Below are positions 7,501-34,948 of a DNA stretch of 64,000 nucleotides, piece by piece. Positions within the stretch are counted from its first letter, which is position 1. Every line of letters begins with the position of its first letter. Source of the DNA: Gari tellinella. Lineage: Eukaryota; Mollusca; Bivalvia; Cardiida; Psammobiidae. The stretch spans positions 89,152,198-89,216,197 of the forward strand of contig OV277859.1 in the NCBI GenBank assembly GCA_922989275.2, in the 5' to 3' direction. The translations under genes and the position numbers were made by a program. Under the pieces are notes generated by a model. That model saw only the letters and a program-made list of their open reading frames with translations. It did not search any database and was not told where the DNA came from.

Positions 7501-10500
7501 GAAAAAACTTAATGACGAGTGACAAACATCTTGAATCCAGATCAGACGCGGCGTCTGATCTGGATTCAAGCTGTTTGCAAATGTAAACAAATTTCCCTCC
7601 CTATAACGAGTCCCTCCGAGCAACGCACAAAATTGCTGTTTCCCATCGGGTGTCGTTTTAGAGAGGGAGCGCTGTACAATATAATTAATTCTTCGGGTAG
7701 TCTGAGTAAGCTACGAATATCAAATTCATACCTGAATCAGAACTTTTATGTTGCCAAATATGTCAATTTAATGAGCGAGTGAAAACATTAGCATCATAAT
7801 AAAACTGTTCTTTTTAATATTGAACATTAGATGAGATTAATGATCACAATATGAAAATGAGCTGAACGTAATATGAAACGCATGTGTATGAATTTACATA
7901 ATTTTCGATTACATGTATCAAAAGGGGTATCATTGAATATGCATAATCCAACACTGAAATAACAACAGTTTAACCCGCAGTTTTGCTCACGATATGGGGC
8001 ACAATGACTTATTATGCCGCGTCTGATCAGAGTTTAGACGGTTTGTTGATAGGAATATCAATATAAAACAAAACGAAAATACAAATGTAGAGCAGGGCAC
8101 TCCTTAGATATAACATCGATTAATTCCAATACAAAAGCATGGAAGAATTCACTGGGGCACATGGGTTAAACCCTTCACAGCCTGATTTGTCGTCTGCTCT
8201 AGCTCTTCCAGCGCAATAATATCATCTACTAATATATTATTATTTTTATTATACCCGATTTATATAGCGCTCTTTTCACACTGGAGTTGTGCGTTCAAAA
8301 GCGTTTCACATGTAATTATATAAATGTACCTACAAAGCAAGAAAGACAAATAAATACATTCACAATAAAAATGATACAATATTGAGATGCATGGAAACAT
8401 GGAAATTCTTTCAATATCATTACCAAGATTATAAAATTGTTATATAGTAAGTTTGTAAAATCATTTTTAAAATGAGTCAAATAATTAAAAAGATCAATGG
8501 CATGATTAAAACAGAGTGGATTTTTGTTTGTTTGTTTGTTTGTTTGTTTGCTTGTTTATTTGTTTGTTTCAGTGTAGAGCCGAAGAGTAGTTCACAAATC
8601 GTAAAACGAATGTTTAAAACAATACTCTCCATGTTGTTTGGTTGAATTTGTTTGTTTGTTTGTTTGTTTCAGTGTAGGGCCGGAGAGCAGTTCACAAGTC
8701 GTAAAACGAATGTTTAAAACAATACTCTCCGTGTTGTTTGGTTGAGTATTGTTTAATCTATGGCCGTGGTACACCCTTAGTTCATAAACATAAAGCTGTT
8801 CAAGAATTTCACCATAGACCCCTAGCCAAATGGTTTCAAAGCGATTAGCAATCCCTACCAGCAAGATCCACCAGACAGGCACAAGGTCAATGGTACAACT
8901 TCAAAACTGCCATTCAGACCCACAGCATCCACAGCAAGAACCCAGCCCAGAGGTAGCAGTCATTGATTACCTACTTTCTTCTAATAACAGATATTAAATA
9001 GAGGATAATTGTTTTTTTTCAGTATAAGATAGAAATTTAATCCATTGAGTGAACATCAGACGTTATATTTTCACGAGTGGCGAAGCCACGAGTGAAAATA
9101 TAACAGTCTGATGTTCACTCAATGGATTAAATTCGATCTTAAACTGAAAAAATACAATTGTTCTATTTATTTATGCTTTTAAGCCACTTTTTAAACGAAA
9201 TTGTTCGACAATTGTGAAAGCGAAAGTACATGATTTACCCCGTGTTGAGCCCCAAGTTTACATAGAACACATTAACGAAACAGTTTCCCGTACGATGACA
9301 TCACTTATTTATGGATTTGACGTCATCCGAATTACGTCGTTGCTCCCGATTTTCGATTCGTGTTCTTCCGTTGAGTGGTTCGCGACAAATCGGACTGCCG
9401 GAATTTAACGATAAGACACGATTGACTACGATTTTTGGGGAGCCCTACGGGGAAAACGGCGATTGGTGATAATCCACTGCAGTGGATTACCAAGTGATAA
9501 TCCACTGCTATTTTCCGGTAATCCACCGAAAAGCATAAATAAAGAAGTGTGTTTTCAGACGTTTTTTGAAGATACTGTGGTCTGTACTTTTGTTTCAAAA
9601 CTTATTGTTTATTGTATCGTATGTACATAACTAGTAGTTAAACTATGCAAACAAAGTCGTCTAACTTAAAAACAATATGTATTCCAACGCGTTGTCAAAA
9701 TTTGTAAACAAACTTTGAGTCAAACGACATTTGTGTCGGCGATCGAATGGCTTTAGATGGGAAGGGACAGAAACTGTTTGCGACCTAGATATACTCTAAA
9801 TAAATCAAAATTAACATCGGAACTAGAATTTGCATTTTTACTCACTTGGGCGGTCCATTCACGCGTCATCTATGGACATAAAGATAAGCTAATAAGCTAA
9901 ATATATAAGTATCAAGTTAGTATAAACAAAACATTGCCAGTAGATAATGTTATAAATAGAATCTAACATTCGTGGTCATAATAAATTGGATTTATAGAAT
10001 TCGTCTTTTAGAAAACGATAACAAAAGAACTCGATAAGCCTCGTCTTTATCATTTTCTAAAAGAGACTCGTAAATTATGACCACTTATGTAAGCTCCAAT
10101 ATCTAAGGCAAAATGACTATAGAAATATCAAAATAATTGTCAAACAGTTTATTTTTTTATTTTTTATCAGACGCCGCGTTTCGCTGACATAGCTACTACC
10201 GTTTTCAATAGCAAATAATAGTCGCGTAGATCCTTGTCTCGAAAGGTCATGTTAGAAATCAATTCGATTACGTCACTATTAATAAAGACTTACTTACGTC
10301 ACTGGGATACAATAAAAGGAATTTTGTTTTAAAACATACCTTAAAATTCTTGGTTATGTGAGGAAATATTATGTCACTCGTCAATCTTTGAGACAAACTG
10401 ATCTCAACCTCGGCTAGAATAGAACAGTTATTAACCTCGCCTAGGCTCGCTTAATAACATTTCAATTCCAAACTCGGCTGAGATCAGCTTGTCTCAAATA

Positions 10501-13500
10501 TCGCCTCATGACAGATCCAATATATACAATTTACTTACTTTTAATTCCAACTCGGCTGAGATCAGCTTGTCTAAAATATCGCCTCATGACAGATCCAATA
10601 TATACAATTTACTTACTTTTAATTCCACTGTCTGAGATCAGGATCATGTCATATTTGGCTTCGTCATATCCTGTAGCCATGTTGTTTACCTTGGGATTTA
10701 TGCCAAAAGCGTTGCCACCTGCAATGAAAATACAGTTAAAACTTCTAAAATCCTCATTTCTGAAAACAACCAGAAGTCTATGAAAAGCAGAACAAGTTTC
10801 CCGTCAAAAAACCAAGGGCTACACGCTCGTACTTGCTCACTTCTATCTATCTAAGACTAATAAAGAGTTGTAAGGAAAGGTCGTTGTTTAATGCAGGACA
10901 CCAGGACACTATCTGTATTTACTGATATCCTGCAGTAAGCTATGTATACGTATGAAATGTCTTAACCCTTTCCCTTATAGAAGCGACTTTTAGCGCATTC
11001 ATTTTATTCATCCGCCAAAGAAAATAGTTCCATTTTATACTGTCATGAATATGTACCATAAGAAATATTTTCTATATTCTAGCAGATAGTAACCTAAAGC
11101 AGGCTGAAAGTAAAGCAGAATGCGCACTATGGCGCATTCTGCTTTACTTTCAACCTGCTTTAATAGGTCACATATCTTAACTACTAGAAACAGGCTATGT
11201 GGTAATGGGTTAAACGACTGTTAATTCCATTAAGCAGCTTGAACATAGAATTATAAAAGGAAAAGTGATGGCCTTGCTAAACCGATATCCCGGTCATAGA
11301 TTGTGATAATATGGCTTCCTTGTTTGTTTATTTATTACTAGTCGAAAGTAGTGGTCCTTACTTAAACAATAGTCAGGTCGTATGTTGTGACAACATGGCA
11401 TTTTTGTTTATTCATTTCAGATCTGGAAGTTATGGTCCTTGCTAAAACAATGTTCAAGTCGAACATTGTGACAATAAGACTTTCTTGTTTATTCCGTGGA
11501 AGTCGGGAAAGTATAGGCATTGTTAAAAGACGGAATTATACACTCACGTGAGCAGGGTTCCAGATAAGGGGAATAAACTGAACAAATCCAGCATTTTTCT
11601 CACTTATTTTCAGCACCAAATCACATGGTGTTACTACTCATTCGAATCGTCTCTTCGAGACGATTTTAATGAGTAGTGACACCATAGGCTTTCAAGCAGA
11701 ATTGAGGATTTTAGTTTTTGAAATACTCCCCTTATCTTGAACCCTGCGTGAGTGTATAATTCCGTGGTTAAAACAATGTTCTGGTTTTATGGTGTGACAA
11801 TATGGAGTTTATTCAGCATATCTCGTGGGGTTATGGTCCTTGCTATACCGATGTGCCTGAAGCATTTAGTGACAAAATGGCTTTCTTGTTTATTAATTAC
11901 ATTTTCAAAACTAAGTTGTAGATCTACTACAGTTAAACCTCTGAAAACCGAATCGCTCCTGAACACGAGTAGAAGTATGTTCCTTGGAACACATACGGCC
12001 CCTGCTAGAAAGCATCAGTCGTACAAGAGTTATAACCTGAATGAAACGCTCCAGTACATATGTCAATCAACATACATGTAGTACGCTTGCATACAGTGGA
12101 GAATCTGTTATTCTTTCCCAATAAACGCGTTTACGCTAAAACTTTTATTTGCAGTTCAAACAGTTTGGAACCAGATCAGACGCCGGGTAACCCGGTGTCT
12201 GATCAGGCTCCAAACTGTTTGCCACCAAGATAAACATGAATTATCAGAATTGTCAAAAAGTTGTACTTTTCTACGTTTGAGTGTTTTGCGTTTGCGTACG
12301 TTTGCGTTTAAACGGGAAAGAATAACAGATTCTCCACTGTATACACGTACCAACACGTTTTCCTGTATACAGAAAAACCTCTCTATTACGACCATGTAAT
12401 TGTGGTAAGTAGTAGGTGTTTACGACAGGTGGCCTCTTAAAGCAAGGTGACGGTAAAAAAAGAAAGCTCTCGGTTTTACTGTAACTCTGCTTTATGCTGC
12501 CATCTGTCTTTTATACATTTAGTGGTCGTAATAGAGAGGTGTCACTGTAGTTTTATTTAGTCTTACAGACATATAGGTGAGCTTACTGTCATCATACTTC
12601 AAGCAGCCATTGGGTCAGTTTGCAGGACAGTTTTTCTCCTGGGGCCCGTTTCATAAAACTTCTTGCGACAAATTTTGTCGTAAGTCAGATTATAAAAGTA
12701 TCAATTTAATTCTCCATCTAATCCTGTCTTGTGACATCTTTTTAGAATCGTCTTGAATCCAAAAAGATGTCACAAGACAGGATTAGATAGAGAAATCAGA
12801 GATTAAAAGTATTTTAAAGTTTTGGCTTACGACAACATTTGTCGTAAGATGTTTTATAAAACTGGCCCGATTATCAGGACAACGTAGAAGTATGAACTAT
12901 TACCTCTTTTGCGAATAGTTTAATGTGAAAATGTGATACCGCGTGAACTGTGAAGAAAATTATTGATATTTTTATGGTTTATACGAATATCGATCAAATA
13001 CAAATGAACCATGCCATGAAAAAACATGCCTTATTGCATTGCATCATTGTACAGACCAAACACAGCTCTCTATCTGAATTTGGTCTACATTACAAAAAAA
13101 CCGTATCTAATACATCTACACTATAAGGTTTTTCTGTACTCCATACAAATTTGACGGATGTCAAGAAAACCCCTATTGAAACAGTCTGCTAATTTGAAAT
13201 TTAAATATACAGTAAAACCCCTCTAAACCGGAACCTCTTAATACCGGAATTCTCTATAAACCGGACAACAACTTTGGTCCCGTTTCCCACCCATTTTACC
13301 CCTTTGATTTATTCCTTCACTCAAGAAAATACATTCATGAACATATATCATCATAAATATAGTCTATATTCTAGCAGATGATAGCTTAAAGCAGGTTGAA
13401 AGTAAAGCAGAATGCGCCTTAAGGCGCATTCTGCTTTACTTTCAACCTGCTTTAAGTGGTCAGCTACCTTCCATACTAGAATCAAGCTATGGGTTAAAAC

Positions 13501-19500: not shown

Positions 19501-22500
19501 TAATCTTGTCATAGAATTTTGTTAGATGTTTTACATGTATTTACTTACTGTGCTGGCGGTCTTTTTGATTGTAAGGTTGTGGAACAGGGTTTATATTTTA
19601 TGTACACTGTTCGTCTTTATAGGTGAACATAGGAGATAAGTGTGAGGTTGGGTGCCCCTAAACCCAGGTTAACCCCCCCCCAGTGGTTGTTAATGGTTAA
19701 TTTATAATTAATTATTGATTGCTGCTGACCGTTCCAAGGCGGGCTCCTATGTTCACTTTGCTTTATGTTTGTCTTGCGTATTGTTTTCTATTTGGTGTGT
19801 GGGATTGCGTGTGTTTGTGTGTGTGTGTGTGTTTGTTATGGTATGGCTGTGTGTGTGTTCTGCTTTAGAGGTGGGTGTATTGTTTGTGTTGCGTTTCCTG
19901 CTTGAGTCTTCTTTCGTATTTATTTTTTAAACATAGCTTCGTTCCTTCTTTGTTTAAAGGGGTGTACCCGCAGAGTATGTAATAATGTAATTAATCCATT
20001 AACCCATAAATACGCCCTTGTACACCTTAAATGAATTCCTCCACTAAATATAACAGTTTTGTTTTATACACTTAACGAATCTTCTAATTGTGCACTTATA
20101 TATGGTATCATATCTCCGGCACTAATGACCAGATCATGTTAAAATTTTGCAGAAAATCAAGAAGACATATTTCTGATGGTCATATGTTTACTTTATTTAA
20201 TACAAAGCAAAAAATATATAAATTGGAAAGAAAAGTATGAGTGAGTAAAAAAAGTTGGTTTCTCAAAAAGAGAGAGGGGACGTATACAGAAACCTCAGGT
20301 GCGATTCCCTACTCTTATTCGCTGGTTATTTTAGAATCCAGTGTAAAGAACAGTTACTGGTCAATAAATTGGTCTTCGGTTTTTATAAAGTCTTATCCTA
20401 TGGAATTTGTCGGGCGGGGGATCGTTCTCACGACCGTTGGTATCGTAGTCGAGCGCGTTACTCTTCGACCACGTCCGACGGTGAGTGTAACAAAAAGTCA
20501 TTAAAACAATATTTTTGTCAATTTAGACAAACAAACGGCTTTAATTCAGTAACGCCTTAGTCCAGCATCGTTTATAACAGCCTGACGTCGACGTCATATC
20601 GACGTTACGCATCATTATACTGCAAAGTAGATTCCTTACTTTTCATTGGTCAACGAGCCCTAGACGTGGTCCCATGTACCATGTGAGCTGACAGGGTACT
20701 TGGGAATGCAGCTGTTTCATTGGCTGACAGGTCCCTGAGTCTTGCTTTGCAGAAAATAAGATGGCCGATAGCTCGACAGGATTGAGTGCATTCAATCGTG
20801 CATCCACCGTTTTAATTCCGTTTCGGCTAAGAACCAATCTATGTTTGGATCTTTCAACAGTCGCATTAATTCTGGGAAGTTTGAAGTCGAAGTCTACTAG
20901 TATGTTCATTTTTCTTTTGAAAAACAACGTCATAAACATATGACGTCACTTACGCTCAACGTCATATGTTTTGACGCGATTTTGTTACTGTTTACTTTGA
21001 GCGCTGTGCACGACAAATTCCGAAATATTTCATTTGAACAATAAAAACTTTGAAGTATAATTAATTCGTTATACAGTTTCTTCACAGGGTACATGAGGAT
21101 TTCTTCCCGGCTGGTAAAATCATGTAACTCTCGCCTAACGGCTCGGGCAACAATGATTTTCCTCAGCCGGGAAGAAATCCTCATGTACCCTGTGAAGAAA
21201 CTGTATAACTAATATAGTTGAACGGCTATTCAACGTCGCTCGATCAAGATATTCGTCCAACAACGTGTTTGTCTTAACTGCGGCTTGATAGCGAATGCAA
21301 GAGAAAAATATCGAAACAATAGTTCACGATTTTCTCGTGCAAATTAAGTATTTTGTCGATTCATGGTTCACTGGGTCTTCAAACAAATTTTTTTAATTTG
21401 ATAACGATGTGACATTTCAATTTCCGTAAATGGCCAACACGCAAATAAGTGAGTAGAAATTCTTATAAATAACAGTTATATAGCGAAAAGAAAAGTGCAC
21501 AGTTAGAATATTCGTTAAGTGTACAATAATTATTACATACCATCAGAAATAATTGTCGTATTCTGGCAGATAAGAACCTAAAGCAGTCTGAGAGTTTGTT
21601 TTTAGCAAAGACGTGCATATTGGGAAGGAATAACGTCTTTGCAATTGTAACAGACTGGTGTATGTATTTAACCCTTTCATACTCAATTTTTTTCTTGAGA
21701 TTTTTACCCCTTCACCGTTTCATTGTCGTCTGCTTTAACTTTGTTGTCTCCAATATCACTTCAAAGTTTAATAAAAGAAGTATGACTGAAGAATTTCAAA
21801 ACGAGTGTCAAAAAATTTGCTTCCTGATCAGACGCCGCGATACGCGGCGTCTGATCAGGATCAAAACTGTTTGCAAAACACGCTTTTAAGCGTCATTGAG
21901 GTAGAAAGGCTTCAGCAAATTTTAGCACATGCTTACTTACTTAAGAGTATTTTGGCATCTACATGAGGATACTTGTTCATCAGAGCTTGAACTATCGACC
22001 TACAGCCATCTGACCCATCCTGGATACAGAACAGAAGCTCATACTGAAATAGATAAAAAGTATATTGGTGCACACCGTGGAGTCTCATCCTGGATATAGA
22101 ACAGAAGCTCATACTGAAATAGATAAAAAGCGTATTGGTGCACACCGTGGAGTCTCATCCTGGATATAGAACAGAAGCTCATACTGAAATAGATAAAAAG
22201 CGTATTGGTGCACACCGTGGAGTCTCATCCTAGATATAGAACAGAAGCTCATACTGAAATAGATAAAAAGCGTATTGGTGCACACCGTGGAGTCTCATCC
22301 TGGATACAGAACAGAAGCTCATACTGCAATAGATAAAAAGCGTATTGGTGCACACCATGGAGTCTCATCCTGGATACAGAACAGAAGCTCATACTGAAAT
22401 AGATAAAAAGCGTATTGGTGCACACCATGGAGTCTCATCCTGGATACAGAACAGAAGCTCATACTGAAATAGATAAAAAGCGTATTGGTGCACACCATGG

Positions 22501-25500
22501 AGTCTCATCCTGGATACAGAACAGAAGCTCATACTGAAATAGATAAAAAGCATATTGGTGCACACCGTGGAGTCTCATCCTGGATATAGAACAGAAGCTC
22601 ATACTGAAATAGATAAAAAGCATATTGGCGCACACCGTGGAGTCTCATCCTGGATATAGAACAGAAGCTCATACTGAAATAGATAAAAAGTATATTGGTG
22701 CACACCGTGGAGTCTCATCCTTGATATAGAACAGAAGCTCATACTGAAATAGATAAAAAGTATATTGGTGCACACCGTGGAGTCTCATCCTGGATATAGA
22801 ACAGAAGCTCATACTGAAATAGATAAAAAGCATATTGGTGCACACCGTGGAGTCTCATCCTGGATATAGAACAGAAGCTCATACTGAAATAGATAAAAAG
22901 CATATTGGTGCACACCGTGGAATCTCATCCTGGATATAGAACAGAAGCTCATACTGAAATAGATAAAAAGCATATTGGTGCACACCGTGGAGTCTCATCC
23001 TGGATATAGAACAGAAGCTCATACTGAAATAGATAAAAAGTATATTGGTCCACACCGTGGAGTCTCATCCTGGATATAGAACAGAAGCTCATACTGAAAT
23101 AGATAAAAAGCATATTGGTGCACACCGTGGAGTCTCATCCTGGATATAGAACAGAAGCTCATACTGAAATAAATAAAAAGCATATTGATGCACACCGTGG
23201 AGTCTCATCCTGGATACAGAACAGAAGCTCATACTGAAATAGATAAAAAGCATATTGGTGCACACCGTGGGGTCTCATCCTTGATACAGAACAGAAGCTT
23301 ATACTGAAATAGATAAAAAGCATATTGGTGCACACCGTGGAGTCTCATCCTGGATATAGAACAGAAGCTCATACTGAAATAGATAAAAAGCATATTGGTG
23401 CACACCGTGGAGTCTCATCCTGGATACAGAACAGAAGCTCATACTGAAATAGATAAAAAGTATATTTGATGCACACCGTGGAGTCTCATCCCGGATACAG
23501 AACAGAAGCTCATACTGAAATAGATAAAAAGCATATTGGTGCACACCGTGGAGTCTCATCCTGGATACAGAACAGAGGCTCATACTGAAATAGATAAAAA
23601 CGTATTGGTGCACACTGTGGAGTCTCTTCCTGGATACAGAACAGAAGATCATACTGAAATAGATAAAAAGCATATTGGTGCACACTGTGGAGTCTCTTCC
23701 TGGATACAGAACAGAAGCTCATACTGAAATAGATAAAAAGCATACTGGTGCACACCGTGGAGACTCATCCTGGATACAGAACAGAAGCTCATACTGAAAT
23801 AGATAAAACGCATATTGGTGCACACCGTCGAGTATTATTTTGTATACAAAACAGCAGCTCATATTGAAAACAACAAAAATATTTTGTTTCATATTTGTTT
23901 TATTCTGTAATACAGAAGAGCAATAACATACAATACTCAAACATACTAAAATCTATTGTCACACACAAAGGTACTTGACACATATATCTAGATATATAAC
24001 CAAAAAGTTTTATTATTATATTTACTATACTTCTATTTGTATCTTTAAAAAAAAAATTTTTTTGGTAATAGATCTAGATCGATGTGTTAAGTACCTGTGG
24101 TCACACATATGACTCATCCTGTATACTGAACACCAAATCATACTGAAACAGTTAAAACCCATATTGTTTCCCATTTGCCTCATCCTGTTATACAGATCAG
24201 TCAGACAAACAATTTCATATTGTAACACACCTGGGGCCCGTTTCATAAAACTTCTTACGACAAATGTTGTCGTAAGTCAGATTATAAAAGTATCAATTAT
24301 TATTTATTTCTCCATCTAGTCCTGTCTTGTGAATCGTTTTGGAATCGTCTTGAAAAGACGATTCCAAAAAGATGTACCAAGACAGGATTAGATAGAGAAA
24401 TCACAAATTAAATGTATTTTAAAGTTTTGACTTACGACAAAATTTGTCGTACGAAGTTTTATGAAGCGGGCCCCTGTTTCAATCTGCATACATAATAGAT
24501 GATACATGTATCTTAAAGGTGTATTAAACTCATGCATTTGTGAAATTGACCAAGTATAAAAAACAACCATTTATATCATGGTTTTGTTTTGAAGAGCTAT
24601 TACAGATGAATGGGAAAATAGAAAAAGATTATAGTTTATTATATTGGTGTACAATTTTTGGCTCTAAGGCCATTTCTAAAAGGTGTGTCAGATTAAGGAT
24701 TTGATATTTCTTATTTTGTCCTGTTAAATGAACCCGCTTCAATAAATTCTATTTCAAATTTAAACAAACATGGTAATTTGGTTTTGTAGTACAGTAAAAC
24801 CTCTCTAAACCGGAAATGTGTGGGGACAACAAAAATGTTCGATTTAGTGGGGTTTCCGGTTTAGAGGGGTTTTGACTTGTTTCTAGTATGACTGATAGCT
24901 GACCACTTAAAGCAGGTTGAAAGTAAAGCAGAATGCGCCTTAAGGCGCATTCTGCTTTACTTTCAACCTGCTTTAAGCTATAATCTGCTAGAATGTACAA
25001 ACTTTTTTCTTCAGTATAAGAATAAACCAAAGTTGTAAACATGCGTATTTATGGTGTAATGGGTTAAAAACAAGAAGGGTTGGAAACGGGACCAACATTT
25101 TTGTCCGGTTTAGAGAGACTTTCAGTATTTAGAGGTTCCGGTTTAGAGGGCTTTCACTGTATTTATTCTATGTCTATGGTAGTATATCCTCATAGAAAGA
25201 CAAATTTAAGACACAGCAATCACCAACTGTGGAATTTATGAAGCTCTAAATACCATAGATATGGTACAAAATGAAACTCGATCATATGTTTAATATCGAT
25301 AAATCGATCTCGCTTAAGTCGATCATACCCTTATTTCAAAGTTAAAACTTGGCTAAGCCACTTTTTAATTTTAACATATAGATATGTTCGAACTAAAGCG
25401 AGTTCGAATTATTGAGTTTCGACCGTAGTTTTTATCTAGAACAGACAGGGCGAGAAAACGAAAACGATACGAATTTACAAAATCCAAACTGTTTTACCCT

Positions 25501-28500: not shown

Positions 28501-31500
28501 TCAAACCCTCTATCACGACCACTAAAAACCGACGGCTAATTGATTGTATCAAAGACAACTGAGAGCTTAAAGCAATGTTACAGTAAAACAGACAGCTTAT
28601 AAAAGAGCTTTCTCTTTTACTGTCACATTGCCTTGAGCAGACACCTGTCATAAACACCTTATGATAAACACAATTTAGTGGTCGTAAATAGAGTGGTTGT
28701 ATTGCAGAAATTTTCTTTAAGTAAGTGTCAAGCAAACCGCATATTAAAATGAAATATGTAAATGAATTAGATTTACAAAATGATAGAGAACTATCTTTGC
28801 CCTCCCAATGTTTGTTGAATTATTTTCTTCAAAGTTCATACAATAGACCAAAATATATCTAGCATATCACACAATATTTGAATTTATTTTGTCTGTAACT
28901 ACATGTATACTGTATGTTAATCTAACTCATGTGCGGATCAAGAGAAAACCATGAGTACTTGACAACCGCGCCCACTCCTCCAAACTGTGTTACCCCGGGT
29001 AACGATTACATGTACCCTATAGCCTGTTTCTAGTTTTGAAGACGACAGATAACTTAAAGCAGGTAGAAAGTAAAGCAGAATGCCCTTAAAGGCGCATTCT
29101 GCTTTACTTTCAACCTACTTTAAGCTATCATCTACTAGAATAAAGAAATTTATTCTGATTATACATATTCATGAATGTATTGTCTTTAGTGTAGGAATAA
29201 ATCAAAGGTTTCCTCTAAGCTACAATCTGCTTGGAAAAAAGGAAATACAGTAAAACCCCACTAAAACGACCACTAGTTTATGTTTTTATTATGAGTTTAA
29301 AGCAGGTGACTGCTGAAAGCAAGGTAACAGTAAAACAGAAAGCTCCTTTAGGAGCTTTCTGTTTCACTGTCACCTTGCTTTAAGCTGTCACGTGTATTTT
29401 ATATCACACATTAGCCTTCTTTTAAGTGGTCGTAAGAGAGAAGTTTTACTGTATCAATCATGTTGTATGTTCGTGAATATAGCAAGAGGAACTTTTTTCT
29501 TAGCGGAGGAATAAATTTAAAGCGTAAACATGAATATTTATTGGGTTATGCGCAAAGTAATCTCCGTTACCCCTCCTGAAAACCTGTTTGGATCCGCGTT
29601 CGTGTTTCTTGAAAGAGTGAATAACGAGCTGGGTCATAGTTGGGTAATGAAATCTTACACACATCATCTAAACAGTCTACGTGATCTCGTTTCTTTTCTA
29701 AAATAATTTGTTTTACTTGCAAACTGTTTAAATTCTTTTCAGACGCCGAGTAACGCGGATCAAAAGTGTTCAACACTCATTTCAATGTTTCGGAAGTCCA
29801 AATACATTATTTCTAAATTTGAGAAATAAAAGCAAACGACAAAATTAATATTTAAAAAAGATGACGTCACGGTTATGAAGGGATAATAACGTGCACAGTA
29901 TCAATAGACGGCATAGTTTTTAATGGAAACTAAATATATTTAATCCCTAATACATTATCTGAAAACTTAATGAATAACATTAGCCATTCCATCGCAAAAA
30001 CTAAAATTAAAACAAAACGACGGACGACGATTGTCGTACGACGACGGACCACGCCCACATGTCGATCCCAATAGTTGACCTGTGCACTTCGTGTCAGATA
30101 AGCTAAACAGTCATACGAACCTCAGTACCAACAGGGCTTTGATTAATACTAGTGGCTTTAAGGTGCACGCTGCTTTACTTTCACAGTTTGAAATAAATGT
30201 AGAAAATGACTGGATAGAAAAAATTGACAAACTGCCAGAATCTAAATTGCAAATATTCTAAACCCTGAGGTTATTCGGCGTCTAATCTGACTCCCAACTG
30301 CTTGCCGGACATTCTCGTATAGAGGTGTGGTAAAGACAATCCCTTTTCCAACCTGTGTTCACGATTATAAAGCCTTGAGCTGAATCTGAGATCTTTTTCA
30401 AGCATTTGATTTGTCAGATTTGAGCTTTTGCCTGAGTTTCATCTCAAAAGTTATATTTTCTAGGGGCATGGGGCCCGTTTTACTAAACTACTACGCAAAT
30501 TTTTTGCGTAAGTCAAAATTTTAAATTTTAATTTATATTTTTCATTATCACTTGCTACAAACATCAAATAGCCAGATCAGAGGACGCGCTAACAGCGCGT
30601 CCTCTGATCTGGCTATTTGCTGTTTGCAAACGTTATATATGATCGAAAAATAAGAGTAAAACGATATTGACTTACGTAAAAATGTTGCGTAAGTAGTTTA
30701 GTAAAACGGGCCCCTGTACGTACCTTGTGGTATCTCAGTGTGAAGAAAGTTTCTAGATTTTGATACAGGTTTGGGTCGACGTCCACAAGAGGTTTGAGGA
30801 TTGAGATAGCAGGCAGGTCTTCTAGAACAACGTTGGGGTATTTCCGATGCAGTTTCATTTTCCTGAAATGGCAAATATAAACTTTATTACCCGTGTAAAT
30901 TGCATAACAAAAGGAACATAATCGTGCAGTGGAGACTACGTTATTCTTTCCCGTTTAAACGAAACGCAAACGCAAAACACTAAAACGTAGAAAGGTGCAA
31001 ATTTTGGACAGTTCTGATAATTCATGTTTATCTAAGTAGCAAACAGTTTGGAGCCTGATCGGTTACCCGGCGTCTGATCTGGCTCCAAACTGTTTGCGAT
31101 AGAAATAATAGTTTTAGCATAAACGCGTTTATTGGGAAAAAAATAACGTTTTCTCCACTGTACCTGTTCGCTCACCTATTGCGGGTTTAATTTCAAGGGC
31201 CACATAATGAAGAATGGCCGTCTTATGAAAACGTCCTACGACAAATATTATCATACATGTAAGCCAGGGTATAAGATTCTCAATTTTTAATTATTTTTCC
31301 ATCTAAACCCGTATTGTAACTTCTCTTTGTTATCGTTATCTTCTTGAACAGACGATTCCAAAGAGATGTCACAAGGCAAAATGGCAAAAATCGATGGAGA
31401 GAAAATGAATAAGATGTAATTTTAAGTTTTGACTAAAAACCATTTTTGTCGTACGACGTTTCGTAAGACGAGTCAAAATAGTCTTGGGGTCCGTTTCATA

Positions 31501-34500: not shown

Positions 34501-34948
34501 TAGTTGCTATAGAAATTGATCACGGGCTAAGACATAACCCCGAGCCGAATTAAGCAGTTGTATGTACTCGATTAGTTCCGTGGCCCAGTGGGTCAAGCGG
34601 CGTCCTCATTTTGACTTATGTCCGCCCATGCCGGGTCACGGGTTCGATTCGCACCAAAGCTCAATATTCTTTTTTATTGAAATGCAATTTTTAAACAGAA
34701 TTTCTTATCCTAAACTAATTCTTACCCGTTTATATAAGCGTTTGTCACATACATGTATTTACAAATTACTATTTTGCATGCTATATCTGGTTGTGAGTCT
34801 CTTTAACCCTTAAATGAAACATATCCTTAAAACGGACTTTATCTACTTACCCGTAAATAAGAGCACTGATGTGAAACAGCCAATTCCAGCACCAGTAAGC
34901 GAAAAAACAAAGAGCAACTAAATGTAAAAGCAATTCCATCGTGTCCAT
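1394..34948 (-). CDS. UGCG: Ceramide glucosyltransferase gene, 5' half (exons 1-5)
   Basis: This enzyme transfers glucose from UDP-glucose to ceramide, the first step of glucosphingolipid synthesis, on the cytosolic face of the Golgi. Five exons join without a frame break: 34948-34851, 30862-30724, 22043-21941, 10718-10617 and 1506-1394 (98+139+103+102+113 = 555 nt, 185 codons). Residues 5-31 form the N-terminal membrane anchor. ISILKPL and [12 protein letters not shown] at about 52-71 match the human SLLKPL and DPNL.NNLETFF blocks. IQDGSD ends at Asp91, equivalent to human Asp92. GINPKVNN is at 119-126. DSGI has Asp143, equivalent to human Asp144 of the second catalytic motif. The third Asp and the QxxRW motif lie beyond the left edge, so the gene is partial. 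Introns are about 4.0, 8.7, 11.2 and 9.1 kb and full of repeats. Tandem copies of splice junctions flank exons 3, 4 and 5. The identification rests on remembered human UGCG sequence, not a search. Confidence 0.93.
1507..2235 (-). repeat. Tandem array of exon 5 acceptor copies
   Basis: About 11 diverged units of about 71-76 bp lie end to end; one near 1,981-2,042 is shortened. Read on the gene strand, each unit holds GGATGTTTCTTACAG, a good 3' splice site, then TGCAAGAAGATACCC and TATAGACATTGCTG. These match the start of UGCG exon 5 (TGCAAGAGGATACTC, TATAGACATGGCTG) with only a few differences over about 40 nt. The units translate to QEDTRIDIAVYMT-like strings. Because units differ from one another by many substitutions, the array is older than the one beside exon 3. 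Decayed units continue at 3,091-3,179 and 3,396-3,470. Confidence 0.9.
2236..3090. other. Intron DNA splitting the exon 5 array
   Basis: No gene is seen. Exon-5-like units stop at about 2,235 and resume at 3,091, so this block looks like an insertion into the array. It contains loosely repeated ACAACCTAAT and ACGGT(A)T...ACCG motifs at 2,320-2,690. I do not recognise it. Confidence 0.45.
3091..3470 (-). repeat. Decayed exon 5 array units split by a D2 MITE
   Basis: One unit lies at about 3,091-3,179 (GTCATGTGAACAGCAATGTC ... CTCTTGCACTGTTAGAAAC). Another resumes at 3,396 with ATGTCTCTATGGATATAG and TTGCACTGTAAAAACATCC. The D2 element at 3,180-3,395 interrupts them. Conservation with the exon is lower than in the main array. 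Confidence 0.7.
3180..3395. mobile_element. D2 MITE
   Basis: The ends are GGGCCCATTTTATAAAAC and its complement ...GTAAAATGGGCCCC. The subterminal pair is ACGCAAAAATTTTGCG / CGCAAAAAATTTGCG. The interior arm ATCAAATAGCCAGATCAGAG leads to the centre GCGCGTCCTC, which lacks its full second arm. A fuller copy is at 30,474-30,715. Confidence 0.8.
3498..3570. repeat. Half of a family I MITE
   Basis: The left arm (TTGAGTCTGAGTACGTTC, GGTCAGATTTGAGCCTAAGC) is present. The right arm is replaced by the tRNA-like sequence that begins at about 3,571. Confidence 0.65.
3571..3645 (+). repeat. tRNA-like SINE head
   Basis: An A box (TAGCTCAATTTGG, 3,578-3,590) and a B box (TTTCGAGTCC, 3,631-3,640) lie at tRNA spacing. 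An anticodon-like arm TGATT-GACTAGC-AATCG sits between them; its loop would read CTA, which is not a normal sense anticodon in animals. The acceptor ends do not pair well. It is therefore more likely a SINE head or tRNA pseudogene than a working tRNA. A T/A-rich tail follows. Confidence 0.6.
3780..4146. mobile_element. B2 composite MITE
   Basis: The element is flanked by TA and begins CAGTGAAACCCCTCTAAACC; it ends TTTCACTG. Inside lies a core-B palindrome at about 3,897-3,965. The stretch also carries pieces of a family B element (CTGTTTCTAGTATGGAAG on one side, GTAATGGGTTAA at 4,043-4,055). It therefore looks like a TTAA-type MITE captured in a CAGT-type MITE. Confidence 0.88.
4147..5227. 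other. Intron DNA, no gene seen
   Basis: This is intron 4 of UGCG. I see no recognised exon, RNA or MITE. A C-run (CCCCCCCC) occurs near 4,627-4,634. Confidence 0.4.
5228..5345. repeat. Perfect-arm inverted repeat
   Basis: The arms (AAATGAACGACAGAAAATT and ...CGGCAAAT against ATTTGCCG... and complement) pair over about 45 bp around a loop with GCGTTAGCG. The outer edges are GATTTTTTTCGGTGTTCAAG and its near complement. It is probably a foldback MITE; no second copy was noticed here. Confidence 0.65.
5346..6358. other. AT-rich intron DNA, no gene seen
   Basis: The block is AT-rich, with scattered A/T runs and a short open frame at 5,733-6,038 (minus) that resembles nothing I know. Confidence 0.4.
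6359..6604. mobile_element. A2 MITE
   Basis: The ends are CAGTGGAGAATGTGTTATTC and its complement ...GTATTCTCCACTG. The centre is a core-A variant GACGCCGGGTTACCCGGAGT with GGAGCCAGATCAGAC arms. Copies lie at 12,094, 30,927, 44,654, 54,136 and (truncated) 54,877 and 58,026. Confidence 0.88.
6700..7225. repeat. Family O repeat, copy 1
   Basis: An inverted repeat with arms AGGACCCCTAATGAGATC / GATCTCATTAGGGGTCCT (about 6,747-6,905) is followed by AAATATGATCAGTC and TTTTTTAAGATATTTTCCATC. The tail is ATTTACAAATTACTATTTT. Most of this recurs at 34,146-34,830, where it is split by a SINE. Confidence 0.7.
7330..7674. mobile_element. A1 MITE
   Basis: CAGTGTTCCCTACAACGACC follows TA and GAGAGGGAGCGCTG precedes TA. 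The central core is shortened (GACGCGGCGTCTGATCTGG). The open frames on both strands across it (7,265-7,782) come from the repeat and are not genes. Confidence 0.88.
7675..8520. other. Intron DNA with an old repeat tail
   Basis: No gene is seen. A stretch at about 8,250-8,310 (TTTATATAGCGCTCTTTTCA, then GTGCGTTCAAAAGCG) recurs at 46,873-46,935. A short core-A remnant (GCCGCGTCTGATCAGAG) lies at 8,016-8,032 and recurs around 18,710. Confidence 0.5.
8521..8745. repeat. GTTT microsatellite and about 100-bp tandem duplication
   Basis: TTTG repeats at 8,521-8,570 and 8,648-8,668 each precede the same block (TTTCAGTGTAG, GTTCACAA[A/G]TCGTAAAACG, AACAATACTCTCC). The two blocks, at about 8,569-8,645 and 8,668-8,745, differ at a few sites only, so the duplication is fairly recent. 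Confidence 0.85.
9009..9154. repeat. Inverted-repeat MITE
   Basis: The arms run from TTTTTTCAGTATAAGATAG to the complement CTTAAACTGAAAAAATA. They pass through TTTAATCCATTGAGTGAAC and GTTATATTTTCACGAGTGG, and the centre is CGAAGCCACG. The arms pair over about 65 bp. Confidence 0.8.
9465..9525. repeat. TAATCCACTGCAGTGGATTA palindromes
   Basis: A perfect 20-bp palindrome at about 9,470-9,489 is followed by GATAATCCACTG and GGTAATCCACC half-copies. Its function is unknown. Confidence 0.6.
9965..10090. repeat. Inverted repeat
   Basis: The arms GTGGTCATAATAAATT and ...CGTCTTTTAGAAAACGATAA face TTATCATTTTCTAAAAGA... and AAATTATGACCAC. The arms are imperfect, with a loop around ACTCGATAAGCC. Confidence 0.65.
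10387..10500. mobile_element. Inverted-repeat MITE beside exon 4
   Basis: The arms TTTGAGACAAACTGATCTCA and ACTCGGCTGAGATCAGCTTG pair over about 33 bp with centre CTCGCCTAGGCTCG. The right arm by chance shares AATTCCA and CTGAGATCAG with the end of UGCG exon 4. This may have seeded the duplication described in the next entry. Confidence 0.65.
10464..10616 (-). repeat. Tandem copies of exon 4 donor region
   Basis: Two units of 79 and 78 bp lead up to the real exon 4 end. On the gene strand each reads GAGTTGGAATTAAAA|GTAAGT and then AAATTGTATATATTGG and CTGTCATGAGGCG. The true junction reads CAGTGGAATTAAAA|GTAAGT followed by the same intron start. The donor, about 14 exon bases and about 45 intron bases are therefore present three times. 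The remaining part of each unit (CTCGGCTGAGATCAGCTTGT) matches the arm of the MITE at 10,387-10,500. Confidence 0.88.
10617..10718 (-). CDS. UGCG: UGCG exon 4
   Basis: The acceptor is TTTTCATTGCAG before GTGGCAACGC, and the donor is AATTAAAA|GTAAGTAAAT. The 102 nt complete a split Ser codon with exon 3 and leave one base for exon 5. The exon encodes [18 protein letters not shown] and then [16 protein letters not shown]. Human UGCG has GGKKVGINPKINNLMPGY and EVAKYDLIWICDSGIR here. Asp143 of DSG is the conserved second Asp of the GT21 active site. The human Lys-Lys becomes Asn-Ala. Confidence 0.92.
10963..11213. mobile_element. B MITE
   Basis: The ends are TTAACCCTTTCCC and GGTAATGGGTTAA, with a core-B palindrome at about 11,096-11,162 (AAAGCAGAATGCGC and complement). 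The TTAA-CCC...GGG-TTAA ends are of the piggyBac kind. Confidence 0.87.
11531..11766. mobile_element. H inverted-repeat MITE, copy 1
   Basis: The inner ends are CAGGGTTCCAGATAAGGGG and CCCCTTATCTTGAACCCTG. The centre is GTCTCTTCGAGACGATTTT flanked by GGTGTTACTACTCATTCG and its complement. The flanks also mirror each other (CGGAATTATACACTCACG / CGTGAGTGTATAATTCCG), so the palindrome extends past the element ends. A second copy is at 38,949-39,144. Confidence 0.82.
12094..12339. mobile_element. A2 MITE
   Basis: CAGTGGAGAATCTGTTATTC ... AACAGATTCTCCACTG is flanked by TA on both sides. The centre is the GCCGGGTAACCCGGTG version of core A. Confidence 0.9.
12370..12547. mobile_element. C MITE
   Basis: CAGAAAAACCTCTCTATTAC ... 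GTAATAGAGAGGTGTCACTG lies between TA dinucleotides. The interior arms AAAGCAAGGTGACGGTAAA and complement flank a reduced core C. Confidence 0.87.
12641..12868. mobile_element. D MITE
   Basis: GGGGCCCGTTTCATAAAACT ... AGATGTTTTATAAAACTGGC. The inner arms are ATCTAATCCTGTCTTGTGAC and complement, and the subterminal palindrome is TTGCGACAAATTTTGTCG. Copies lie at 24,233, 31,214, 31,486 and 53,666. Confidence 0.87.
13210..13578. mobile_element. B2 composite MITE
   Basis: CAGTAAAACCCCTCTAAACC ... GGGGGTTTCACTG is flanked by TA. It carries a reversed family B interior with core B at about 13,388-13,456 and a visible B end (GCTATGGGTTAA) at 13,485-13,496. Confidence 0.88.
13620..13700. repeat. Core-A remnant
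   Basis: GCAAACAGGTTGAATCC, GAGACGCCGAAAAACTTGAC and GTCTCATCTGCATCC form a decayed core-A palindrome without recognisable ends. Confidence 0.6.
13720..13970. mobile_element. B MITE
   Basis: TTAACCCATTACCCCATAGC ... GGTAATGGGTTAA with core B at about 13,772-13,840. This is one of the most complete B copies and shows the TTAA ends clearly. Confidence 0.9.
14098..14290. mobile_element. A3 MITE, decayed
   Basis: It reads CATGACGTCAACAACTTTAA, GCCGTCTGCTTTTATATC and CAAACGGTTTGCAAACAACA. The core is damaged. It ends TACTCGGGGTGGATCAGTG, the A3 terminal region. An open frame over it is not a gene. Confidence 0.7.
14617..14815. mobile_element. C MITE
   Basis: CAGTTAAACCTCTCTATTAC after TA; the right end reads TAATAGAGAGGTTTTACTA (mutated). 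The core-C region reads AAAGCTGCTATAGGAGCTCT. Confidence 0.85.
15134..15709. mobile_element. C MITE split by an A1 insertion
   Basis: The left part (15,134-15,306) starts CAGAAAAACGTCTTTGTAAC and runs through core C to CACCTGTCTTTTGTA. The right part resumes at about 15,667 and ends TTAGAGGTTTAGCTG before TA. The A1 element 15,307-15,664 sits in between, so A1 moved after this C copy was in place. Confidence 0.83.
15307..15664. mobile_element. A1 MITE, full length
   Basis: This is a full A1 copy: CAGCGCTCCCTCTCTACAAC at one end, GCAGAGAGGGAACGCTG at the other, and an intact core A at about 15,519-15,558. It is nested in a C element. The frame at 15,458-15,673 (minus) is repeat-derived. Confidence 0.9.
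15745..15925. repeat. Decayed C MITE
   Basis: AAAAACCCTTATTACGACC at one side and TTTAGTGATCGTAC at the other, with TTCTGAAGGAGCTTCTATTT as the core. The terminal bases are lost. Confidence 0.65.
15926..16132. repeat. Long inverted repeat
   Basis: The arms ACAACAATCTTGTCAAGATT and CACTTGGTAAAAGACAATGA (and complement) pair over about 50 bp. A 110-bp loop follows, with CGCATGCG-like and CTCGTAAATCGCAGAAC segments. It is probably a foldback MITE. Confidence 0.7.
16740..16990. mobile_element. B MITE
   Basis: TTAACCCTTCCCCCAATAG ... GGGTAAAGGGTTAA with a core-B variant AATGCGCCCTCAGGCGCATT. Confidence 0.86.
17088..17328. mobile_element. B MITE
   Basis: TTAACCCATTAACCCATAGC ... GGGTAATGGGTTAA with core B at about 17,138-17,205. 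Confidence 0.88.
17499..17854. mobile_element. A1 MITE, full length
   Basis: CAGCGCTCCCTCTCTACAAC ... GTAGAGGGGGAACACTG. Core A at about 17,610-17,645 has GACGCCGCGTAAGGCGGCGT. The end beside 17,854 is followed by TA. Confidence 0.9.
17880..18299. mobile_element. Two C MITEs in a row
   Basis: A decayed copy lies at about 17,880-18,030. A longer one at 18,050-18,299 has CACTTTTCTATAGCGACC at one end and AAAGAGAGAGATTTTACTG at the other, plus about 60 extra bases (CGTGACGACGAGTCCACAG region) before its right arm. Confidence 0.72.
18985..19132. repeat. Inverted-repeat MITE
   Basis: ACTAGTGTGTAATCGTGCAA TATAACACGG pairs with CCGTGTTCTATTGCACGATA / ATACACTGG. The inner arms are GATGCGTAGTAATG and TTTAACTACCAGCATC. 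Confidence 0.65.
19133..20234. other. Intron DNA with GT microsatellite and B remnant
   Basis: No gene is seen. A (GT)n run lies at about 19,808-19,835, a C-run at 19,673-19,681, and a decayed half B (CCATTAACCCATAAATACGC) at 19,996-20,080. Confidence 0.5.
20235..20479 (-). repeat. tRNA-derived SINE
   Basis: On the minus strand a tRNA-like head runs from 20,479 to 20,409. The acceptor arms GTCGGAC and GCCCGAC pair with one mismatch. An A box (TGGTCGAAGAGTAACGCG) and a B-box-like GAACGATCCC lie at tRNA spacing. A non-tRNA body follows and ends in CCCTCTCTCTTTTTGAG at about 20,260. Open frames across it (20,241-20,560) are not genes. Confidence 0.55.
20640..20960. other. Unexplained block open on both strands
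   Basis: Two overlapping open frames lie here: minus 20,643-20,939 (98 residues, including [19 protein letters not shown]) and plus 20,761-20,943 (60 residues, [20 protein letters not shown]). ATTGG boxes occur at about 20,645 and 20,719. The end flanks carry repeated ATGACGTCA-type motifs (20,585-20,600 and 20,938-20,970). I do not recognise a protein family. A repeat or an old mobile element is as likely as an exon. Confidence 0.3.
21066..21215. repeat. Near-perfect long inverted repeat
   Basis: Arms of about 48 bp (TTATACAGTTTCTTCACAGG, GTACATGAGGATTTCTTCCC and their complement) surround a loop with CTCGCCTAACGGCTCGGGC. The arms are nearly identical, so the element is recent or maintained by conversion. 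Confidence 0.8.
21668..21898. mobile_element. A4 MITE
   Basis: TTAACCCTTTCATACTC, CATTGTCGTCTGCTTTAAC, core A at about 21,826-21,856, then ACGCTTTTAAGCGTCATTGA. The closing GGGTTAA is degraded. It ends about 40 bp past the UGCG exon 3 donor. Confidence 0.82.
21941..22043 (-). CDS. UGCG: UGCG exon 3
   Basis: The acceptor is TTTTTATCTATTTCAG before TATGAGCTTC, and the donor is CTCTTAA|GTAAGTAAGC. The 103 nt start in phase 0 directly after exon 2 and leave one base for exon 4. The exon encodes [18 protein letters not shown] and [16 protein letters not shown]. Human UGCG has YEVLLCVQDHDDPAIDVC and KKLLGKYPNVDARLF here. Asp91 corresponds to human Asp92 of the first catalytic motif. The acceptor and first 28 nt are one end unit of a 70-bp tandem array that fills the next 1.8 kb upstream on the gene strand. 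Confidence 0.93.
22011..23830 (-). repeat. 26-unit, 70-bp array of exon 3 acceptor copies
   Basis: Units start every 70 bp from 22,081 to 23,761, plus the exon-adjacent unit (26 in all). Most units differ at 0-3 sites. One has an extra base near 23,466 and one lacks a base near 23,600, so overall spacing is restored. On the gene strand each unit reads GCTTTTTATCTATTTCAG|TATGAGCTTC and then TGTTCTGTATCCAGGATG. The first 28 bases after the AG are identical to the start of UGCG exon 3; the next 25 or so (AGACTCCACGG...) are not. The array ends exactly where exon 3 continues. Because 70 is not a multiple of three, all three frames of the array rotate, and the long minus-strand frames here are by-products. 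Confidence 0.96.
23831..24230 (-). repeat. Decayed outer units of the exon 3 array
   Basis: Units with many differences continue upstream on the gene strand: about 23,831-23,900 (TTTTCAATATGAGCTGCTG, TTTTGTATACAAAATA), about 23,900-23,950, about 24,105-24,165 (AACTGTTTCAGTATGATTTG, TATACAGGATGAG) and about 24,175-24,230. Identity falls with distance from the exon. A non-array stretch lies at 23,950-24,100. Confidence 0.8.
24233..24474. mobile_element. D MITE
   Basis: GGGGCCCGTTTCATAAAACT ... GAAGTTTTATGAAGCGGGCC with inner arm CTCCATCTAGTCCTGTCTTG and centre GTCTTGAAAAGACGATTCC. Confidence 0.88.
24560..25275. repeat. Family R repeat split by B2
   Basis: The left part is 24,560-24,791 (GAAGAGCTATTACAGATGAA ... 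CATGGTAATTTGGTTTTGTA). The right part is 25,160-25,275 (TTTATTCTATGTCTATGG, AAGCTCTAAATACCATAG). The uninterrupted equivalent is at 36,950-37,200, which shows the B2 element 24,792-25,159 entered at a TA. Confidence 0.8.
24792..25159. mobile_element. B2 composite MITE, exact insertion visible
   Basis: CAGTAAAACCTCTCTAAACC ... GGGCTTTCACTG is flanked by TA on both sides. It has core B at about 24,908-24,976 and a B end GTAATGGGTTAA at 25,056-25,067. The empty site at about 37,145 fixes its ends. Confidence 0.9.
25279..25425. repeat. Family J inverted repeat
   Basis: CGATCTCGCTTAAGTCGATC / GTTCGAACTAAAGCGAGTTC outer arms and AAAGTTAAAACTTGG / GCCACTTTTTAATTTTAAC inner arms. Copies are at 35,598-35,742 and 54,472-54,645. 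Confidence 0.75.
25590..25802. mobile_element. A3 MITE
   Basis: CCCCTTCGCTGCCATGACGT ... GGGGTAAGGCAGTGAAGGGG TTAA, with core A at about 25,716-25,745. The left TTAA is altered. Confidence 0.86.
25845..25975. repeat. Partial B MITE
   Basis: CCTCATCACCTGTTTCTAAT leads into a core-B palindrome (AAAGCAGAATGCGCC TCAAGGCGC). The right half after GCTACCATG is lost. Confidence 0.72.
26426..26652. mobile_element. A3 MITE
   Basis: TTAACCCCTTCACTGCCTTA ... GATGACGTCATGGCAGAAGG GGTT, with core A GACGCCGCGTTATGCGGCGT at about 26,489-26,508. Confidence 0.88.
26745..26885. mobile_element. A6 element
   Basis: CCCTATTGACGTATATATGC, then the palindrome TTAGAGGGCTCCTGTAGGAG / CCCTCTAATCAGAGGC. A6 copies are also at 31,917, 59,515 and 63,559; full ones have TTAA-CCC ends. 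Confidence 0.75.
26900..27712. repeat. GTCGAC palindrome arrays and the stretch between
   Basis: At 26,900-26,962 one unit reads CGCTAGTGACAGTCGACTGT CACTAGCG. At 27,519-27,712 four to five 43-bp units alternate between GACAGTCGACTGTCAATAGC and a TTCACGTCAAATTCGC spacer, so the array is self-complementary at many scales. Between the two arrays lie about 555 bp with no recognised gene. The pair may mark the two ends of one larger element. Confidence 0.75.
28329..28463. repeat. 67-bp tandem duplication
   Basis: AGGAGCTGTCGATTGCC ... GGTCATTGCTCGCAAGTTTC occurs twice in a row (28,329-28,395 and 28,396-28,463) with four or so differences. Confidence 0.9.
28498..28703. mobile_element. C MITE
   Basis: CTGTCAAACCCTCTATCACG ... 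GTCGTAAATAGAGTGGTTG, core AGAGCTTTCTC region. The TA-adjacent termini are damaged. Confidence 0.8.
29013..29210. mobile_element. B MITE, right end lost
   Basis: CCCTATAGCCTGTTTCTAG, core-B-like GAATGCCCTTAAAGGCGCAT, then ATGTATTGTCTTTAGTGTAG. The right end is replaced by other DNA before the C element at 29,248. Confidence 0.75.
29248..29451. mobile_element. C MITE
   Basis: CAGTAAAACCCCACTAAAAC after TA; GAGAAGTTTTACTG before TA. Intact core C (AAAGCTCCTTTAGGAGCTTT) at about 29,339-29,358. Confidence 0.9.
29555..29886. repeat. Decayed A3 MITE with insertion
   Basis: ACCCCTCCTGAAAACCTGTT at the left, about 110 bp of foreign DNA (GGGTCATAGTTGGGTAATG region), a broken core A near 29,741, and AGATGACGTCACGGTTATGA at the right end. 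Confidence 0.6.
29887..30356. other. Intron DNA, no gene seen
   Basis: A direct run of CGACGG motifs (ACGACGGACGACGATTGTCG) lies near 30,018-30,050. Nothing else is recognised. Confidence 0.4.
30357..30470. repeat. Decayed family I MITE
   Basis: ATTATAAAGCCTTGAGCTGA, CAAGCATTTGATTTGTCAG and then a degraded right arm. Confidence 0.6.
30474..30715. mobile_element. D2 MITE abutting exon 2 donor
   Basis: GGGCCCGTTTTACTAAACTA ... TTTAGTAAAACGGGCCCC. The long arm ATCAAATAGCCAGATCAGAG is intact on both sides of a GCGCGTCCTC centre. The right end lies about 9 bp from the UGCG exon 2 boundary, so only GTACGTACA of native intron precedes it. Confidence 0.88.
30724..30862 (-). CDS. UGCG: UGCG exon 2
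   Basis: The acceptor is ATTTGCCATTTCAG before GAAAATGAAAC, and the donor is ACCACAAG|GTACGTACAG. The 139 nt complete a split Gly codon and end in phase 0 after Lys79. The exon encodes [39 protein letters not shown] and FTLRYHK. Human UGCG has [20 protein letters not shown] and LETFFELDYPK here. The junction shows no tandem copies, unlike exons 3-5. A D2 element begins 9 bp inside intron 2. Confidence 0.93.
30927..31160. mobile_element. A2 MITE
   Basis: CAGTGGAGACTACGTTATTC ... AACGTTTTCTCCACTG before TA. The core has lost part of one arm (TGATCGGTTACCCGGCG). Confidence 0.86.
31214..31728. mobile_element. Two adjacent D MITEs
   Basis: A decayed copy lies at 31,214-31,475 (GTCTTATGAAAACGTCCTAC ... 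CGTACGACGTTTCGTAAGAC). A better one is at 31,486-31,728 (GGGGTCCGTTTCATAGAACT ... TTTTATGAAACGGACCCC). Confidence 0.8.
31768..31905. repeat. CGATAGT/ACTATCG repeat
   Basis: ACTATCGCC, ATCGATAGTTG, ACTATCACGATAGACTGTCG and TCACGATAGTTTATC form overlapping inverted repeats. Related CGATAGT motifs return at 32,808-32,890 beyond several younger insertions, so one older block may have been split. Confidence 0.65.
31917..32310. mobile_element. A6 element followed by decayed B MITE
   Basis: TTTAACCCTTTCAACCCTAA ... GTTGAAAGGGTTAA frames the A6 part (31,917-32,112; AGGAGCCCTCTGATCAGG half-core only). It is followed by a B remnant (TTAATACCATCATGAATATA, GAATGCGCGTTGAGGCGCAT) to about 32,310. Confidence 0.72.
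32328..32680. mobile_element. A1 MITE, full length
   Basis: CAGCGCTCCCTCTCTACAAC ... GTAGAGAGGGAACACTG between TAs. The core is slightly shortened (AGACGCGTAACGCGGCGTCT). Open frames on both strands here are repeat-derived. Confidence 0.9.
32700..32790. repeat. GCTGCCCGGGCAGC palindrome array
   Basis: Four palindromes (GCTGCCCAGGCAGC, GCTGCCCGGGCAGC, GCTGCCCAGGCAGC, ACTGCCCGAGCAGC) follow one another with 7-12-bp AT-rich spacers (ATATAC, AAATAT, ATCTAGAT). Confidence 0.9.
32944..33330. mobile_element. A1 MITE followed by core-A remnant
   Basis: CAGCACCCCTGTCTCAAACG ... TTGCAGGGAGGGAGCGTG (32,944-33,242), core damaged (GATGACGCGTAATGCGGTGT). Directly after it is another core-A piece (GGATCCTGACCGGACATTGC ... 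GTCTGATCAGGATCAAAATT). Confidence 0.78.
33445..33800. repeat. Decayed A1 MITE
   Basis: GATCCCTCCCTACAAAGATAC, CCTACGAACAACGGTACC, TTTTGACAGAAAAAACTAAT and a cut-down core (GACGCCGAGTAACGCGATTC). Terminal bases are not clear. Confidence 0.65.
33938..34140. mobile_element. C MITE
   Basis: CAAAAACCTCTCTATTACGA ... GTAATAGAGAGGTTCTACTG with TA on both sides and an intact core C (AAAGCTCCTGTAGGAGCTTT). Confidence 0.9.
34146..34830. repeat. Family O repeat, copy 2, split by a SINE
   Basis: 34,146-34,572 and about 34,745-34,830 match 6,700-7,160 and 7,180-7,225 (AAATATGATCAGTC, TTTTTTAGATATTTTCCATC, GAGCCGAATTAAGCAG, TTTACAAATTACTATTTTGC). The interruption is the tRNA-headed SINE at 34,574. The repeat ends just inside intron 1 of UGCG. 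Confidence 0.72.
34574..34720 (+). repeat. tRNA-derived SINE
   Basis: An A box (TGGCCCAGTGGG, 34,581-34,592) and a B box (GGGTTCGATTC, 34,640-34,650) are separated by about 60 bp with a long variable region, as in Leu/Ser-type tRNA heads. The acceptor arm is not paired. The tail boundary is uncertain. Insertion into the family O repeat is visible. Confidence 0.65.
34851..34948 (-). CDS. UGCG: UGCG exon 1 (coding part)
   Basis: The exon reads [18 protein letters not shown] and [14 protein letters not shown], then donor TTTACGG|GTAAGTAGAT. These 32 residues match the human N-terminus exactly in length (MALLDL ... FMAIIY), which is why this ATG was chosen. They form the N-terminal membrane anchor. 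An ATG 102 bp upstream in the same frame (35,050) would add 34 residues with five Cys; it could be an alternative start or only open 5' UTR. Exon phase 2 agrees with exon 2. Confidence 0.88.

Follow-up and report, generated by a model that had tools for sequence, protein, structure and literature searches.

The UGCG-type gene and the array at its exon 3

The stretch analysed here, 64,000 nucleotides of contig OV277859.1 from the bivalve Gari tellinella (assembly GCA_922989275.2; hereafter the window), carries on its minus strand five exons of a UGCG-type gene and, abutting exon 3, a tandem array whose unit repeats the intron 2/exon 3 junction. The exons were found using the human UGCG protein as the bait, and their splice sites are in phase. 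Four further exons lie past the window's start on the same contig, giving a gene of nine exons with 416 open codons, the stop codon of which was not placed. The encoded protein belongs to the Pfam family Glyco_transf_21 (E 1e-23) and its best named matches, among the 120 listed of 153, are molluscan (Mactra antiquata, 66%; Mya arenaria, 62%), in agreement with the UGCG identity proposed in an earlier sequence-only reading of this DNA. The protein similarities also indicate a heterodont bivalve as the source of the DNA, and amphioxus was rejected on this basis. The assembly also contains two further UGCG-type genes, paralogues located on C13 and C9. The exons in the window and the features at exon 3 are listed below, with a slash marking splice junctions.

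34851..34948, minus strand: UGCG-type coding exon 1 (protein bait match, in-phase splice sites)
30724..30862, minus strand: UGCG-type exon 2 (splice sites in phase; no duplicated junction found in self-comparison)
21941..22043, minus strand: UGCG-type exon 3, 103 nt (acceptor TTTTTATCTATTTCAG/TATGAG, donor TTAA/GTAAGT)
10617..10718, minus strand: UGCG-type exon 4 (in-phase splice sites)
1394..1506, minus strand: UGCG-type exon 5 (bait match, in-phase splice sites)
22016..23869, minus strand: acceptor-junction array of 26.5 copies of 70 bp (Tandem Repeats Finder, TRF), its last copy the real exon 3 start and its first copy decayed
23824..24200, minus strand: older decayed exon 3 copies (nhmmer and local alignments)

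TRF reports a period of 70 and a match of 96% over the array. The sequence-only reading had described 26 copies of a 70-bp unit; the repeat stands, but its extent is corrected to the limits given above, and the homogenised part reaches only to about 23793. On the minus strand, the unit consensus runs through a pyrimidine tract to CAG and continues with TATGAGCTTCTGTTCTRTATCCAGGATGAG and about two dozen further bases, and each unit thereby comprises a 3' splice site and the first ~31 nt of exon 3. Upstream of the real exon 3 acceptor there are 27 acceptor-like copies, 26 of which have an intact AG; 21 of the 27 are identical to the real acceptor over positions -17 to +3 and 5 over -17 to +28. 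The consensus departs from exon 3 at one position within the first 28 nt, and the earlier statement that these 28 bases are identical in each unit therefore holds for the consensus with this one exception and for few of the individual units. As had also been read from the sequence, the array passes without a gap into exon 3, which begins at a codon boundary (22043-21941), is open and has its own donor, the last copy of the array being the head of the exon.

The far edge of the array is decayed. Its first copy has an acceptor at 23863 in which AG has become AA, and overlaps with a decayed match at 23824-23891 (nhmmer E 3e-12; AG lost). A further decayed copy at 24110-24171 (nhmmer E 2e-14) retains the AG and shows exon homology up to nt 37, and an exon-only fragment could be aligned locally near 24171-24200. 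Roughly 72 nt at the end of exon 3, along with its donor, are missing from the array units, which sets them apart from an alternative-exon array, where every copy would be an entire exon flanked by its own acceptor and donor. No other match to the unit was found in the 64-kb window (best other nhmmer match E 0.99), and a two-unit query against the 1.6-Gb assembly of 80 contigs gave 12 matches, all within the window and hence at a single locus; such counts are lower bounds, very common words being skipped by the search. The unit does not have the copies at many unrelated loci expected of a genome-wide satellite, an origin that the sequence-only reading had named as a possible objection and that is rejected at the sensitivity of this two-unit search.

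Exon 3 as the very likely source of the units

Nine of the 120 relatives listed were aligned; the proteins of all nine include exon 3, free of inserts where it meets exon 2, and have YELLFCIQD in common, and the proposal that it is a genuine UGCG exon withstands this check in relatives. The codon that follows FCIQD is GAG in 26 of the 27 upstream copies and GGG (Gly) in the real exon 3, while 9/9 aligned relatives have Glu immediately after FCIQD or its equivalent, as does the C13 paralogue. Since the units have the Glu codon seen in relatives, exon 3 is very likely to be their source, as had been supposed from the window alone, and the view that the copies keep an earlier state of the exon (Glu before Gly), like exon fossils, appears well supported. 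The older copy at 24142, which aligns to exon nt 37 and hence beyond the usual unit break, also reads GATGAGTCA (GATGAG).

The core units differ from one another by about 4% on average. Neighbouring units differ at 2.0 positions against 2.83 overall, a value below every one of 20,000 shuffles of their order (23 units with exact 70-bp spacing, excluding two units with 1-nt indels), which bears out the earlier suggestion of recent growth or homogenisation. Position 17 is A in the unit adjoining the exon and G in the exon itself, the exon departing from its neighbours at this site.

The protein encoded in the window has Gly in place of Glu after FCIQD and GWS in place of GMS, where 9/9 aligned relatives have Glu and GMS. 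It also reads FFGSIAK, one residue shorter and without the His of the GSQHAK/GTQHAK found in the four nearest relatives. This divergence at conserved sites suggests that the function of this paralogue may be relaxed or altered.

Junction arrays elsewhere in the UGCG genes and their relation to mirages

Self-comparison of 46 exon edges from the three genes (40 internal junctions) located four junction arrays in all, affecting 3 of 16 junctions in the window's gene and, in the C13 paralogue, one of the 12 junctions located, whereas the located exon edges of the C9 paralogue gave none. Exon edges were approximate for C13, C9 and exons 6-9 of the window's gene, and the count includes no junctions of the first coding exon of either paralogue or of one later C9 segment, which were not located. 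Apart from the array at exon 3, the following were found.

1538..2231, minus strand: exon-5 acceptor array of ten decayed ~71-bp units, each with roughly 45 nt of exon 5 (TRF, nhmmer)
3087-3147 and 3393-3432, minus strand: two outlying decayed exon-5 units, presumably older (nhmmer E 6e-11 and 2e-6)
10460..10641, minus strand: exon-4 donor duplication, 78 bp x 2.3 (TRF; blastn 94% over 106 bp)
L027:7188-7503: donor array of the C13 paralogue, 63 bp x 5.0, 96% match, about 44 nt of exon end with a GTCAGT donor

The exon-5 array amounts to ~12 units with indels in their exon part, matches the genome at its own locus only (4 matches) and, judged by its sequence, is older than the array at exon 3. 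The exon-4 units comprise about 25 nt of exon end with AAAA/GTAAGT, the second donor being intact and the third lost. The four arrays have unrelated units, differ in their decay and are found at acceptors as well as donors. Intron 4 also harbors a 100-bp x 2.2 repeat (8536-8754, plus strand) that reads TTTGTTTCAG/TGTAGAGCC and, in the orientation opposite to that of the gene, resembles an acceptor. Elsewhere in the window, exons of a methyltransferase gene are found at 48838-53649 (plus strand; Rv2258c-like winged-helix domain, PF21320, and Methyltransf_31), a region where TRF gives no array of period at least 30.

Duplications of splice junctions have been named mirages, and their founding paper, as cited in later work, dates from 2002. 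According to a later account, the name was given after the amphioxus Adh3 case, and amphioxus globin genes carry minisatellite-like duplications of intron-exon boundaries, at an acceptor in BflGb6 and a donor in BflGb9, with units of 150-160 bp as against 10-72 bp in Adh3 (PMC3087553). The same source describes length instability and seemingly undisturbed regular splicing and proposes a model of intron gain; PGBD5 and troponin C provide further amphioxus examples (PMC3902484). The claim of the sequence-only reading that the phenomenon is undescribed was therefore mistaken, although our search, limited to open-licence papers, found no mirage in a mollusc.

As far as the amphioxus mirages are described there, their anatomy is common with that of the exon 3 array. 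The UGCG arrays are tandem copies of segments that straddle a splice junction, with intron on one side and exon on the other; the authentic exon remains intact at the array edge, exon 3 and the nine-exon gene both being open; many though not all units have AG or GT (26/27 at exon 3, 7/10 at exon 5); and in the exon 3 array, a concerted interior (the 4% core difference) is accompanied by divergent units at the boundary (the decayed 5' edge). The differences are in the host, a bivalve rather than a cephalochordate, in the copy number, 26.5 units against the 6 and 3 given for two BflGb6 haplotypes (PMC3087553), and in the presence of several arrays of differing decay within one gene. In human segmental duplications, variable internal tandem repeats at exon-intron boundaries likewise represent minisatellite expansion at a boundary but, unlike the UGCG array as described here, are reported to create novel introns and alternative splicing (PMC2812944). 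Splice signals within a repeat unit are also described for the dual-specific splice sites of tandem-repeat genes such as UBC (PMC10809524); this class, as characterized there, requires AGGT to act as donor and acceptor, whereas the UGCG unit has AG/TATGAG with a weak overlapping donor (score 1.2). The UGCG array is a real, well-formed mirage, large by the published examples considered here and one of several in its gene.

A probable tolerated minisatellite and its alternatives

We consider it very probable that the exon 3 array is a mirage in the plain sense of the term, an ordinary intronic minisatellite that lies across a splice junction, is tolerated and is close to neutral. A segment across the intron 2/exon 3 boundary would have been duplicated in tandem and given rise to a minisatellite, which then grew and was homogenised, presumably via unequal exchange or slippage. 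A duplication of this kind would leave one complete exon with its donor, and splicing to the last acceptor would still give the normal message. The upstream decoys, having no strong donor, could only lengthen exon 3 into a premature stop. On this account, the array would be tolerated because the exon that begins with its last copy remains intact.

The splicing potential of the units is in line with this mechanism. Translation from the upstream acceptors, in the frame fixed by exon 2, reaches a stop in 27/27 copies (after 24 codons in 23 of them), and read-through at either the exon-4 or the C13 donor runs into TAA in at most three codons. The best donor within the exon 3 unit scores 5.3 against 6.7-10.7 for the eight real donors of the gene, using a human matrix, and because the units have no strong donor, the decoys would mainly pair with exon 3's own. 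In the exon-5 array, 7 of 10 units retain the AG, and the average for the 66 pairs of adjacent bases is 7.06 of 10; an AG that persists at the average dinucleotide rate gives no sign of decoy preservation. Competition among the upstream 3' splice sites, as put forward in the sequence-only reading, would be a hypothesis that neither the donor scores nor this decay favors.

The placement of the arrays can also be explained plainly. Together, the three genes span 96,933 bp, of which 18 arrays of period at least 30 take up 9.1%. When the exon-5 array is manually lengthened as far as its homology reaches, 4 of 40 junctions lie inside arrays where random placement predicts 3.5 (P(>=4) = 0.46), and 4 arrays touch a junction where 2.3 are expected (P(>=4) = 0.19); with TRF limits alone, 3 of 18 arrays fall on junctions (2.4 expected, P = 0.43). 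Within this sample of three related genes, these values suggest that the UGCG introns are simply rich in minisatellites. A junction overlap that matches random placement, along with the decay of the exon-5 AGs, favors neutrality, and the simplest reading would be that the upstream acceptors are mostly ignored.

Several observations weigh against this account. The placement test confined to the window, to which we prefer the wider one that includes the two paralogues, gave P = 0.01 (seven arrays of period at least 40; the observed three include the exon-5 array, the TRF end of which is 32 bp short of the exon). In the young exon 3 array, all but one of the 27 decoy AGs survive, and variation within the unit is lowest in the acceptor tract, at 0.12 variants per column; the exon part has 0.52 and the middle 0.91 (counting at most 9 per column in 23 units). 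Constraint on the gene itself, which has diverged at conserved sites, may be relaxed. Nor is the ancestral-codon argument watertight, given that the C9 paralogue has Asp where relatives have Glu and that the duplication breakpoint is close to the AG of GAG.

The window-only value would fit a splicing-coupled, R-loop or mobile-element process that preferentially duplicates exon-intron boundaries, and the occurrence of four junction arrays across three related genes and the recurrence in amphioxus point the same way. However, the number and length of the arrays give this by chance (P = 0.19 for arrays, 0.46 for junctions covered), and we regard such junction-targeted mutation as very unlikely. 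The preserved acceptors could instead form a regulatory decoy array, in which the upstream sites send a copy-number-dependent share of transcripts to an early stop and thereby tune productive UGCG mRNA. The near-identity of the acceptors and the early stops in all upstream copies would suit this role, but the AG is not preserved in the older exon-5 array, no donor within the unit approaches the strength of the real ones and the published amphioxus mirages are said to leave splicing undisturbed (PMC3087553); we consider this role very unlikely. The low variability of the acceptor tract, given how few changes there are, is read as youth combined with T-rich composition, though selection for decoys would look alike, and selection on the decoy acceptors is unsupported with the exon-5 AGs decaying like other dinucleotides. 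A copy-number dial, in which ~26 acceptors of nearly equal local sequence would compete with the real one, all of them giving an early stop, such that alleles of different copy number would differ in productive UGCG-type mRNA, appears about as improbable. A coding cassette, where each acceptor would be joined with the overlapping CA/GTATGAG of the next unit to yield 69-nt in-frame exons, accords with an open 69 nt downstream of the acceptor position in 25/27 copies but is rejected on its weak donor (1.2 in the same human matrix), the 1-nt indels in two units and the internal stops in two, and is scarcely credible. A dispersed satellite or transposon containing the sequence by chance is equally implausible, given the single-locus matches and the conserved exon sequence in the unit.

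Taking the array as a tolerated minisatellite, the placement control provides a plain account of mirages, namely, that introns rich in minisatellites will have some arrays that span a junction by chance and are tolerated there. The arrays described here extend the phenomenon from amphioxus to a mollusc, in which a single gene family contains several arrays that differ in age. The exon 3 array offers a natural test of how the spliceosome selects the last of 27 acceptors that all have an AG and are nearly identical over the nearest bases. Also, its units seem to store an older state of the exon (Glu before Gly), and such arrays may help date substitutions.
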